NCBI GenBank assembly: GCA_028712095.1
Contig: JAQTQU010000008.1
Coordinates: 1-37,817 of the forward strand
DNA length: 37,817 bases
Direction: 5' to 3'
From: Candidatus Peribacteraceae bacterium
Lineage (GTDB): Bacteria; Patescibacteriota; Gracilibacteria; Peribacterales; Peribacteraceae
The position numbers were made by a program, and so were the translations under genes. Of this stretch, positions 19,079-37,817 are shown piece after piece. The notes under the pieces were generated by a model. That model made no database searches, was not told where the DNA came from, and saw only the letters and a program-made list of their open reading frames with translations. Each line of letters starts with the position of its first letter. Position 1 is the stretch's first letter.

Positions 19079-19143
19079 GGGGTAGGGTTCCGGAAAAACC
19101 TCTTCATGAAATCCTGCACCCTACACCCTCTTCCTACGCCCTA
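19066..19143. repeat. Inverted repeat between convergent genes
   Basis: GGGCGTAGGGCGTAGGGGGTAGGG ... CCCTACACCCTCTTCCTACGCCCTAC. Confidence 0.55.
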
Positions 19144-20613
19144 CTTTACGTACCGCATCGGCTGACTCTGCGTACCGAACGGCATGGCCTGAATGACCAG
19201 CGTGCGACGCTCGTGCGGCAGCACGCCGACCTCGGCACGGCCGTCGTGGAAATCGAGGACCGAGAGCGTATCGGGCTGAAAGTCCGCACTGCCGAACGAA
19301 GCGCGCAGCGCGATATCGCGCGTGAGCATCGGGGAGGTCACCACGTTACCGCGCGCATCGAGCAGGGTCAGGCGCACGCGCTCCCACCCGCGATCCGTGT
19401 ACGAGCCGTCGTGCGTGATTTCCACGGAAACGACAGGCGTGCCGGAAGCCTGCGGCAGGTCTTCGTCGCGGCTCACCACCACTTCACGCCGCTGCACCAC
19501 CTCCCCTGTTTCGACGGGCAGTGATGGGGAGGATGAAGAGACGGATGCCGCGGAGGCGGCGGGACGCACGGCCACGGTCGCAACACTGCGCGCCGCCGCC
19601 AGCCGTTCCGCCCTGCGCTGCGCCACGCGGGATTGGACGCGTGCGATCCACGTCTGGCTCATGACGCTGGATGCTGCAGAAGAGCTGCCCTTGCCGATCT
19701 CCGTGGCATCCACGAGCGTGACGGGCGCATAGTCCGCCTGCACGTAGAGCAGAGGGTTCACCGTAAAGGATGTTCCGCGGTCCGTGTGGAATCCGCGGTT
19801 GATCGCCTCCGTCTCAGAGTAGCCGACTGCGCGTAGCTCCTCGGCCGTGAAGGGCCAGTAGGGGTGCCAGGGGGCGTCTGCGCGGTCGATCTGAAAGTGC
19901 AGGTGGGGGCCCGTGGCGTCGCCGGTCATGCCCGACAGCGCGATCTGCTCGCCTTTTTCAACGATGTCTCCCGGATGCACGAAGGTGACGCTCAGGTGGG
20001 CGTAGTTGCTGAAGAGCACGGTCGTCTCGGAGGGCCGTGAGGGATCGGGAATATTGGGATGCCGGATGACGACGGTCTTGCCGAACCCCGTGGCGTCTTT
20101 CACCTCCTCGACAATGCCGGAAGCGATGGAGCGAACGGGCGTGCCGATGGGCACGCGGATATCCACGGCCGGATGACTGCCGGAATTCTCCTTCCCCGTT
20201 GTGTAGGATCCCATGTAGCTCACGGAGTAGACCAGTTGCGCCTGCGTGTTGCTGAGTGCGGAGGAATAGGATGGCAAAGGGATGAGCAGGCTCTGGGGCA
20301 CCTCGCGGAACGTATGATCCTGCGGGTTGCCGCCATAGGTGTTCCAGCGCAGGTAATCGGGCACGAGGGCAATAGGAGTGACTGTGCCTGTGTAGACGAT
20401 CAGACTATCATCGTCGCGTCCCATTACCGATTTCCAGAACACCTGCCATCCATGCTGACCGATCATGTTGCCCGTCACGAACGCAAGAAGCGAGAGAATC
20501 GCCACCCAGAAGGATGTGCGCTGCGCCAGGTAGTGGAACGCATGCGGCTCCACGTGCCGGTGCAGCGGAGTGGCGCCAAAGCCCAGCGTTTTTCGGGAGA
20601 CAAGATGCGTCAT
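19141..20613 (-). CDS. M23 family metallopeptidase, membrane anchored
   Basis: TM near FWVAILSLLAFVTGNMI; GSHPAVDIRVPIGTPVRSIASGIVEEV, GDATGPHLHFQID. Confidence 0.9.
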   Translation of the reverse strand: MTHLVSRKTLGFGATPLHRHVEPHAFHYLAQRTSFWVAILSLLAFVTGNMIGQHGWQVFWKSVMGRDDDSLIVYTGTVTPIALVPDYLRWNTYGGNPQDHTFREVPQSLLIPLPSYSSALSNTQAQLVYSVSYMGSYTTGKENSGSHPAVDIRVPIGTPVRSIASGIVEEVKDATGFGKTVVIRHPNIPDPSRPSETTVLFSNYAHLSVTFVHPGDIVEKGEQIALSGMTGDATGPHLHFQIDRADAPWHPYWPFTAEELRAVGYSETEAINRGFHTDRGTSFTVNPLLYVQADYAPVTLVDATEIGKGSSSAASSVMSQTWIARVQSRVAQRRAERLAAARSVATVAVRPAASAASVSSSSPSLPVETGEVVQRREVVVSRDEDLPQASGTPVVSVEITHDGSYTDRGWERVRLTLLDARGNVVTSPMLTRDIALRASFGSADFQPDTLSVLDFHDGRAEVGVLPHERRTLVIQAMPFGTQSQPMRYVK

Positions 20614-20637
20614 AGGAGTGTCTGTTTGTCTGGATCT

Positions 20638-20666
20638 ATAATAACATTTTGTTATAATTTCGTCAA
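20638..20666 (-). promoter_or_regulatory. Promoter of M23 gene overlapping the tsaE-HD start
   Basis: Minus strand TTGACG-N17-TATTAT with ATAAC-ATTTT-GTTAT palindrome at 20641-20655. Confidence 0.5.
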
Positions 20667-21820
20667 TGTCTGATTCCGTCTCTCTTTGGCTTACGGACGC
20701 CAAAATGACCCACGCTGCGGGGGCATCACTCGCGCAGTCGCTCTACCGCATTCCGGTGACGATTCTGCTGACCGGACCGCTGGGTGCCGGCAAGACCACA
20801 TTTTTGCAGGGATTGGGTGAAGGACTGGGGATCGGGCAGAGACTCACGAGCCCCACCTACGCGCTGGAGCAGCGCTACCGCACGGAACACTTCGGGGAAT
20901 TGCTGCACATCGATCTGTACCGGCTGACGCAGCACGATGCCGGCCAGCTCATCCATTCCTCGGAACGGCATCACGGCATCCGCTGCATCGAGTGGGCGGA
21001 CCGGCTGACGGTACAGCCGGACGGTGAAGCTCCACCAGCTCACGCTGGTGGTTTCTCTGACAACCGCCTTCGGCGGTCGCTCGCGGAACCCGCCGAAGCA
21101 GCTGCGGAACAATCAACGCATTCCTCCGTCGGCTTACAGCGACGGCTTCCTGCGAAGGCGGGTGAAACGATTGCCATTGCGCTGACTGAGAGACCGGATG
21201 GGGCAGGACGGGATCTGCGCGTTGCCTTTCAGGATATCGCCCTTCCCACGCTGTCACAGGTGGATGCCTGGCGGCAGGAGCTGTTTCTGCCCCACATCAT
21301 CGCGCGTCACTGCGATATGGTGGCACAGACGGCCGTACGGTTCGGCGAAGAACTGCAGAAGCGCGGCATCATCGTCCGCCTTGCGACCCTGCGGGCGGCC
21401 GGGGCGGTACACGACCTGTTGCGCTTTGTCGATTTTCACCGCGGTGCCGCGCACATCGAACGGCAGATCAATCCTGCGCATGCACGGAAATGGGCGGAGG
21501 TGAAAGCCGAGTACGCAGGACTGCATCATGAGGCGGCCGCAGCCAAATTTCTGACCGGAAAGGGATTTCCCGAACTGGCCGAGATCGTGCGCGTACACGG
21601 ACTCACGCTCGCCGATGCCACCCGCGTCACCACCGAGCAGCGTCTGCTCTACTACGCCGACAAACGCGTGAAACTGGATGACGTGGTCAGTCTGGAGGAG
21701 CGGCTGCGCGATTTTACGGCACGCTACAGCCATCAGGGCAGGCTGCGGGAATCCGATGCCTGGTACGACGAGGCGCGCAAAACGGAGCATGCGCTCTTCC
21801 CCGACGGGCCTCCGTTCTGA
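20666..21820 (+). CDS. tsaE: TsaE-like ATPase fused to an HD-like phosphohydrolase domain
   Basis: TILLTGPLGAGKTTFLQGL, TSPTYALEQRY, LLHIDLYRL, IRCIEWADRL; then HIIARHCDMVAQTAVRFGEEL...AGAVHDLLRFVDF...RLLYYADKRV. Confidence 0.8.
   Translation: MSDSVSLWLTDAKMTHAAGASLAQSLYRIPVTILLTGPLGAGKTTFLQGLGEGLGIGQRLTSPTYALEQRYRTEHFGELLHIDLYRLTQHDAGQLIHSSERHHGIRCIEWADRLTVQPDGEAPPAHAGGFSDNRLRRSLAEPAEAAAEQSTHSSVGLQRRLPAKAGETIAIALTERPDGAGRDLRVAFQDIALPTLSQVDAWRQELFLPHIIARHCDMVAQTAVRFGEELQKRGIIVRLATLRAAGAVHDLLRFVDFHRGAAHIERQINPAHARKWAEVKAEYAGLHHEAAAAKFLTGKGFPELAEIVRVHGLTLADATRVTTEQRLLYYADKRVKLDDVVSLEERLRDFTARYSHQGRLRESDAWYDEARKTEHALFPDGPPF
21032..21175. repeat. Cluster of palindromic repeats inside the tsaE-HD coding sequence
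   Basis: CCACCAGC-TCAC-GCTGGTGG (21032-21051), ACCGCC-TTC-GGCGGT (21063-21077), CCGTCG-gcttacag-CGACGG (about 21126-21145). Confidence 0.7.
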
Positions 21821-36172: not shown

Positions 36173-36242
<70 letters not shown>

Positions 36243-36247
<5 letters not shown>

Positions 36248-36376
36248 CGTCAGCTTAAGCTGACGTGGCCAGCCACTTTACTCAACAACAATGAAAATCC
36301 CGACAGTTCGAAAATAGTGACTCTTCGCAAATCATCCACCAGCCCCAGCCACGTCAGCTTAAGCTGACGTGGCCAG
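36243..36376. repeat. Two copies of a 24-bp perfect palindrome downstream of tRNA-Gln
   Basis: AGCCACGTCAGCTTAAGCTGACGTGGCCAGCCA occurs twice (about 36243 and 36350). Confidence 0.85.
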
Positions 36377-36533
36377 CCATCCGGCTTCGCCTGCGGGCTA
36401 CGCCGTGATTTGCACCAATCTGATTCTCTCATTAAGCCGGATGCCACTGCGTAGTTCGAGCGAAGCGAGAACGAAGCCGGACAGTTTGAAAATCGTCATG
36501 CTCCGCAAATCATGTACCGGCCCCATTCAGCAT
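36299..36533. repeat. Imperfect direct repeat, about 50 bp
   Basis: CCGACAGTTCGAAAATAGTGACTCTTCGCAAATCATCCACCAGCCCCA versus CCGGACAGTTTGAAAATCGTCATGCTCCGCAAATCATGTACCGGCCCCA. Confidence 0.65.
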
Positions 36534-36862: not shown

Positions 36863-37817
36863 ATGGCAAAAATAGAGTACGCGAAGAAACCCTTTGCGGT
36901 CATTGTGCTGTCTCTGCTCCTGCTCTCGCAGCCGGGAGTTTCGTCAATGATCACTGCCATCTCCGTCAATGCGCAGAGTGCCACAAGCGGACAGAATGAA
37001 CAGTACCCTCACCCATCTCAGTGCAATGGTGCCAATTGGAACATAGGAACGCCCGATGGCCTCGTATGCACCTCAAGCGTTACGACGGCAAGCGCTCTGG
37101 AAAAAGACGCGCAAGCCACAAGCATTTTCGGTTCCTCCAGCCGTCTGAAGCCTGATCTCGCATCTCTCAACCAGTTCTGCAAACAATACACGGGGGATAA
37201 CACTTCCTATGCTACGTATGGCCGTGTGCATAATTATTGCAACCGTTGCGATCAGAGAATCGCCTGGTGGAGCACCAATACATGGAATGTGCAACAAGCA
37301 TGCTACGGTACGTTGAATGTGCAAAATGTCCGGTGTGCGACTGGTTGTTCGTATGCTGCCTGCAACGATGGCTTGGACAACGACGGAGACGGTGCCACTG
37401 ACTATCCGGCGGACTTCTCCTGCTCCGGCCCCACGGATAACGATGAAACGAACCCCAAGGCCCAATGTCAGGACGGGATCGACAATGACGGGAACGGGTA
37501 CACGGACTATCCGTCAGACACGGGATGCTCGAGCAGGCAGGACAACACCGAGAGCGGCGGACAGCAGTTGTACCAGTGCAACGATGGCTTGGACAACGAC
37601 GGAGACGGTGCCACTGACTATCCCAATGACTTCAGCTGTAGTTCTGCGACCGACAACGACGAAACCAATCCCAAGGCCCAATGTCAGGATGGGATCGACA
37701 ATGACGGGAACGGGTACACGGACTATCCGTCAGACACGGGATGCTCGAGCAGGCAGGACAACACCGAGAGCGGCGGACAGCAGTTGTACCAGTGCAACGA
37801 TGGCTTGGACAACGACG
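36863..37817 (+). CDS. Secreted Cys-rich surface protein with tandem DNDGDG calcium-binding-like repeats (3' truncated by window edge)
   Basis: Signal peptide-like KKPFAVIVLSLLLLSQPGVSS; repeats CNDGLDNDGDGATDYPxDFSCSxxTDNDETNPKAQCQDGIDNDGNGYTDYPSDTGCSSRQDNTESGGQQLYQ. Absent from ORF track because no stop lies in the window. Confidence 0.85.
   Translation, partial: MAKIEYAKKPFAVIVLSLLLLSQPGVSSMITAISVNAQSATSGQNEQYPHPSQCNGANWNIGTPDGLVCTSSVTTASALEKDAQATSIFGSSSRLKPDLASLNQFCKQYTGDNTSYATYGRVHNYCNRCDQRIAWWSTNTWNVQQACYGTLNVQNVRCATGCSYAACNDGLDNDGDGATDYPADFSCSGPTDNDETNPKAQCQDGIDNDGNGYTDYPSDTGCSSRQDNTESGGQQLYQCNDGLDNDGDGATDYPNDFSCSSATDNDETNPKAQCQDGIDNDGNGYTDYPSDTGCSSRQDNTESGGQQLYQCNDGLDND
37361..37817 (+). 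repeat. 216-bp tandem repeat (72 aa), two full copies plus a partial third
   Basis: TGCAACGATGGCTTGGACAACGACG at 37361, 37577 and 37793. Confidence 0.9.

Follow-up and report, generated by a model that had tools for sequence, protein, structure and literature searches.

A TsaE-HD fusion protein conserved in Peribacteria: domain architecture, an in-frame palindromic insert and a predicted phosphohydrolase half

The fusion gene and its domains

The window analysed here is a stretch of 37,817 nucleotides from an uncultured member of the Peribacteria, an ultra-small bacterium with a genome of 1.25 Mb (97.7% complete). A single frame without internal stops encodes a protein of 384 aa in which a complete TsaE domain continues into an HD-type domain (Table 1), as had been proposed by a sequence-only reading of the window. 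The N-terminal half matched the Pfam TsaE family (PF02367) over residues 10-115 (E 5.7e-25, 88.2 bits against a cut-off of 26.6) and passed the NCBIfam model TIGR00150 (75.1 bits against 60.1). The motifs of TsaE (Walker A GxxGxGKT, the Asp, and the Glu-Trp pair) were all present and invariant among the 37 aligned sequences. An AlphaFold2 model of the full protein, built from this alignment, reached a pLDDT of 86.2, and Foldseek matched its first half to solved TsaE/YdiB structures with E ~1e-8 (5np9, YdiB of B. subtilis, and 6n9a, the TsaBDE complex of T. maritima). The protein shares with TsaE, YjeE, and YdiB a complete P-loop domain, and differs from them in the C-terminal HD domain and, in this genome, in an insert placed before the last beta hairpin. 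The end of the TsaE domain, previously put near residue 120, had to be moved: TsaE runs to residue 188, with its hairpin (168-188) following a 46-aa insert (122-167).

The Pfam HD family (PF01966) matched residues 213-333 with 21 bits in the whole protein, against a cut-off of 22, which was passed when the HD half was searched alone (24.4 bits). A model of this half had a pLDDT of 90.6, and its first solved match by Foldseek was 3ccg of Clostridium acetobutylicum (E 1.2e-3, TM 0.5), entitled "predicted HD superfamily hydrolase involved in NAD metabolism", which we take to be YqeK; Foldseek matches were modest, with TM of about 0.5. The H...HD...D ligands and the all-helical fold that characterize the HD superfamily were recovered by the alignment, PF01966, and the model.

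The fusion is the only TsaE of its genome, in which TsaB, TsaC, and TsaD are encoded elsewhere. By inspection, the remaining HD proteins look like RNase Y, RelA/SpoT, a CCA-adding enzyme, a dGTPase-like protein, and a small protein of the alarmone-hydrolase kind, and a profile search of this genome with TIGR00488 (YqeK) gave no matches. Next to the fusion lies a divergent gene for an M23 peptidase, whose listed TTG start would overlap TsaE by 38 nt; the true start is probably farther inside the M23 gene.

Table 1. Features of the TsaE-HD locus, in positions of the window
Feature	Position	Strand	Evidence and remarks
M23 peptidase gene, divergent, conserved locus-marking neighbour	19141..20703	-	Pfam Peptidase_M23
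TsaE-HD fusion gene, 384 aa	20666..21820	+	single ORF; orthologous fusion, with 72 of the 74 family genomes matching
P-loop domain of TsaE together with the insert, residues 1-188	20666..21229	+	Pfam PF02367, TIGR00150, Foldseek matches 5np9 (YdiB) and 6n9a (TsaBDE of T. maritima)
Walker A GPLGAGKT, residues 37-44	20774..20797	+	G37, G40, G42, K43, T44 invariant, 37-sequence alignment
D83, Walker B-type Asp within HIDLYRL	20912..20914	+	invariant, 37-sequence alignment
E109-W110, TsaE Glu-Trp pair	20990..20995	+	invariant, 37-sequence alignment
Mobile palindromic element in frame	21024..21166	+	138-bp unit 21029-21166 (46 codons, residues 122-167); GTGAA copies 21024-21028 and 21162-21166
TsaE C-terminal beta hairpin, residues 168-188, 3' of the insert	21167..21229	+	model strands 168-175 and 182-188
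HD phosphohydrolase domain (predicted), residues 196-384	21251..21817	+	Pfam HD 24.4 bits; NF045665 HD part 1.4e-21; Foldseek top match 3ccg
H215, first metal ligand	21308..21310	+	invariant, 31 HD sequences
H249-D250, HD dyad	21410..21415	+	invariant, 31 HD sequences
H288, ligand of predicted second metal	21527..21529	+	nearly invariant; D in two sampled f4 sequences
H311, ligand of predicted second metal	21596..21598	+	nearly invariant; Q in two sampled f4 sequences
D332, last metal ligand (YADKRV)	21659..21661	+	invariant, 31 HD sequences

A mobile palindromic repeat inside TsaE

The fusion protein of this genome is 46 aa longer than those of its congeners, and the extra residues are those of the insert, for which the full-protein model had a pLDDT below 50 (residues 125-163). 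The corresponding DNA element was missing from the TsaE of four congeners, and the empty site in the congener G001 reads GGTGAA. Three further copies were found elsewhere in the same genome (97%; 99% over part; 70%), and outside of it there was one copy in G003 and one diverged copy in G002. Full-length copies are bounded by GTGAA, and the element folds as several hairpins. The linker of TsaE is, therefore, an in-frame insertion of a mobile palindromic repeat, which the gene survives because the reading frame of the element is open there. A search against Rfam matched only a tRNA, so that the repeat corresponds to no known RNA family. Two copies directly abut TGA stop codons, one after a malic enzyme-like ORF of the same genome (L036, 1665-1812) and the other after a SecD-like ORF of G003 (L039, 1941-2086; both ORFs named by inspection), and their placement suggests a preference for GTGAA targets.

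Like the palindromic elements of Rickettsia (RPE), this element is short, palindromic, mobile, present in multiple copies, tolerated in frame within a protein loop, and missing from orthologues. It differs from RPE and REP in its sequence, its length of 138 bp, its few copies, its GTGAA flanks, and its Peribacteria host. REP families carry a GTAG/CGTC tag at one end (PMC3733652), whereas the element described here has GTGAA ends instead. A literature search found no report of such elements in Peribacteria. That the insert is tolerated shows that essential proteins of Peribacteria are being reshaped by short mobile repeats, as is known best from Rickettsia.

The TsaB gene of the same genome (L176, G000:C22:15653-16396) also has a palindromic insert in frame, but a different one. 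Among the TsaB orthologues of the genus (L237-L241), the loop in question holds yet other inserts in G004 and G002, another loop holds one in G003, and G001 has none. These TsaB insertions are similar to that of TsaE and independent of it, and likewise recall the elements of Rickettsia; in this genus, protein loops seem to be frequent targets of palindromic repeats. The TsaE of G018 also has an in-frame palindromic insert of its own, in a different loop (L025, 1289-1327). A match to a Y1-type transposase lies within a 983-codon open frame of the same genome as the window (L234, G000:C39:10468-10809), with a fragment on contig C3. It is possible that this enzyme mobilises the palindromic repeats; no copy of the element was found on its contig to link the two. 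Elsewhere in the window, two copies of a 46-nt palindrome (CCACGTCAGCTTAAGCTGACGTGG) are found at and just after a tRNA-Gln gene (36230-36379), and tandem 216-nt repeats occupy positions 37361-37817 within a long ORF that continues past the end of the contig, their CNDGxDNDGDG-like units resembling calcium-binding surface repeats.

Fused and split states across the class

In a class-wide survey, matches were retrieved from 72 of the 74 genomes of the window's own family (Peribacteria). Nearly all of them cover the profile from end to end in a single frame of about 335-345 aa; one TAG interrupts the frame in G229, and that of G012 is truncated. A wider scan of genome collections returned, among the matches listed, mostly plain TsaE, and one more fused match (L070, Candidatus Peribacteria, Candidatus Peregrinibacteriota). 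Outside the own family, TsaE-HD was encoded by a single ORF in families f9, f11, f15, f2, and f12 (TGA read as Gly in the latter) and in some members of f4, f28, f32, and f34. Other members of these last four families, together with the sampled members of f29, f30, and f31, have two genes in the same TsaE-HD order, which overlap or lie within about 50 nt of each other (a 4-nt overlap in L161, L164, and L165). In-frame TGA codons were observed within the TsaE/HD genes of some relatives of the same class; they are expected there, as this Gracilibacteria-type class includes TGA-recoding lineages.

The divergent M23 gene adjoins TsaE in all sampled loci of the own family and in most of those sampled from other families, both fused and split. 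Since the same neighbour is present in either state, the TsaE-HD locus is orthologous across families, and the separate genes of the sister families are an alternate state of one conserved pair. The sequence-only reading had named relatives with two genes and an intervening stop as evidence against a fusion: such relatives do exist in several sister families, but the own family is not among them. A tree of the concatenated domains called for at least five changes between the fused and split states, four of them forced by well-supported branches. Pairwise dN/dS among congeners was about 0.1-0.25 for both halves, with lower values for HD; thus both halves are under purifying selection. The TsaE-HD partnership is real and class-wide.

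In f10, f14, f19, and other families of the class, TsaE alone was matched and an HD gene was not detected. Since these families keep TsaE, the HD half is accessory and dispensable for t6A rather than a core step. Among 380 genomes of the phylum, all HD homologues outside the class occur in short frames of about 180-275 aa. Those of other Patescibacteria are stand-alone proteins of about 170-235 aa, and no TsaE was found within roughly 2 kb on each side of the 18 such loci that were fetched. The closest HD homologues outside the class, L208 and L209 (f52), are stand-alone genes without a TsaE within about 2 kb and would be a good control for autonomous HD function. A literature search found no report of TsaE or YjeE joined to an HD domain, nor of Trm56 with HD; as far as the literature and databases searched show, TsaE-HD is a new domain architecture.

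Metal ligands and possible role of the HD half

The diiron site of YqeK is formed by H21, H50, D51, and D127, plus H83 and H109 (PMC8177086), and the H-HD-H-H-D ligands of the HD half are the same set, including, except in f4, the additional pair of histidines for the second metal (H288 and H311). Two HD partners of TsaE in f4 (L158 and L167) have lost both of these (H288 to D, H311 to Q) and, judging by these substitutions, may now be one-metal enzymes. YqeK (COG1713, TIGR00488; an Ap4A hydrolase, including NadD-YqeK) is thus alike in its six ligands and in having the nearest solved fold, 3ccg. On the other hand, the HD half is not a YqeK orthologue: TIGR00488 matched only 2 of the 31 HD sequences, weakly (17.9 bits, the score of one member, against 70.15), and the half is also longer, has TsaE as its partner, and carries a YADKRV..D.VVSLEER motif after the last Asp. 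Its nearest profiles were instead those of the HD parts of a DVU_1551-type NTP transferase (NF045665) and of the archaeal tRNA C56 methyltransferase Trm56 (NF009343), whose partners are an NTP transferase and a SPOUT tRNA methyltransferase, respectively. The HD part of NF045665 was matched by all 31 HD sequences, with a score for this part only of 77 bits against a cut-off of 315, short of membership in the full family. NF009343 was matched by eight sequences (those inspected matched within its C-terminal HD part), TIGR00295 by 28, TIGR00277 (HDIG) by 18, and the C-terminal part of NadD-YqeK by seven. The earlier suggestion that this half resembles small phosphohydrolases is thus well supported by the profile matches, the modelled fold, the conservation of the metal ligands, and the linkage to TsaE throughout the class.

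TsaE with ATP binds the TsaD-TsaB dimer, ATP hydrolysis resets the dimer, and TsaE is positioned where TC-AMP is used (PMC9654439). In the TsaD-TsaB-TsaE complex, which places t6A on tRNA, the TsaE half would accordingly serve as the ATP-driven switch, and the fusion would put a two-metal phosphohydrolase beside a site handling ATP, TC-AMP, AMP, and ADP. The substrates of HD proteins are not readable from sequence (PMC8177086), and we infer the catalysis, the substrate, and any t6A effect of the HD half. In the NadD-YqeK of mycoplasmas, where HD is likewise fused to a nucleotide-using housekeeping enzyme, the HD part is a diphosphatase with a proposed role in proofreading NAD synthesis, and Ap4A activity is found in the wider family (PMC9426524). 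Because of this analogy, the HD half would most likely hydrolyse an adenine nucleotide product or by-product, either a dinucleotide, for example Ap4A, or an adenylate formed off the pathway. A nucleotide substrate, with a role in clean-up or regulation of t6A synthesis, is plausible, and the maintenance of fused or touching TsaE-HD genes across the class suggests that the HD half is coupled to this synthesis for clean-up or regulation, held beside an enzyme that turns over ATP, TC-AMP, and AMP. We therefore favor, at a probability of roughly 0.55, a bifunctional protein that would combine the sole TsaE with a predicted YqeK-like two-metal phosphohydrolase clearing an adenine nucleotide product or by-product near the t6A complex.

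Compaction and translational coupling of an ancestral TsaE-HD pair with unrelated activities, inherited vertically, is a tentative alternative. The orthologous locus with its constant M23 neighbour means that the linkage could be inertia, overlapping genes are favored in reduced genomes, and no TsaE was found near the HD relatives fetched from outside the class; however, the TsaE-HD order was kept through five fusion/fission changes across strongly diverged families, and the HD half is under strong constraint. A bolder version of the favored reading, in which the HD half would be a dedicated quality-control hydrolase of t6A, bound to TsaD-TsaB via TsaE and destroying TC-AMP-derived or mis-charged adenylates or the Ap4A of the pathway, is rather doubtful; if true, it would represent a proofreading step, confined to one candidate-phylum lineage, for a tRNA modification that is nearly universal. 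Editing or destruction of the t6A intermediate itself (TC-AMP or a mis-made adenylate), in the manner proposed for the diphosphatase of NadD-YqeK in NAD synthesis (PMC9426524), would agree with the position of TsaE at the site of TC-AMP use (PMC9654439), yet TC-AMP decomposes by itself and class families without a detectable HD manage, which makes this unlikely.

We consider quite unlikely a catalytically silent HD module that binds tRNA or a nucleotide signal and tunes TsaE: regulatory HD domains exist, two f4 sequences lack two of the ligands, and a relative of the subfamily belongs to a tRNA-modifying enzyme, archaeal Trm56, but the core ligands H, HD, and D are invariant in all 31 sequences. 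The HD fold would also suit a hydrolase of (p)ppGpp, a substrate that the sequence-only reading had suggested for assay; such an enzyme would couple t6A to the stringent response. This is very improbable, as the matching profiles were the NTP-transferase HD part, TIGR00295, and HDIG rather than RelA/SpoT families, and proteins of the RelA/SpoT type and a small HD alarmone-hydrolase-like type are encoded separately in this genome. Finally, the two genes seen in sister families might have pointed to a pair joined by sequencing or assembly error; such an artefact, or a chance fusion, is ruled out by the same fusion in about 70 independent genomes of the family.

Under the favored bifunctional reading, the joining of a phosphohydrolase to a factor of tRNA modification in reduced genomes points to a nucleotide activity linked to t6A. 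Since archaeal Trm56 and an NTP transferase carry HD domains of the same subfamily, one assay could assign the function of the wider family.
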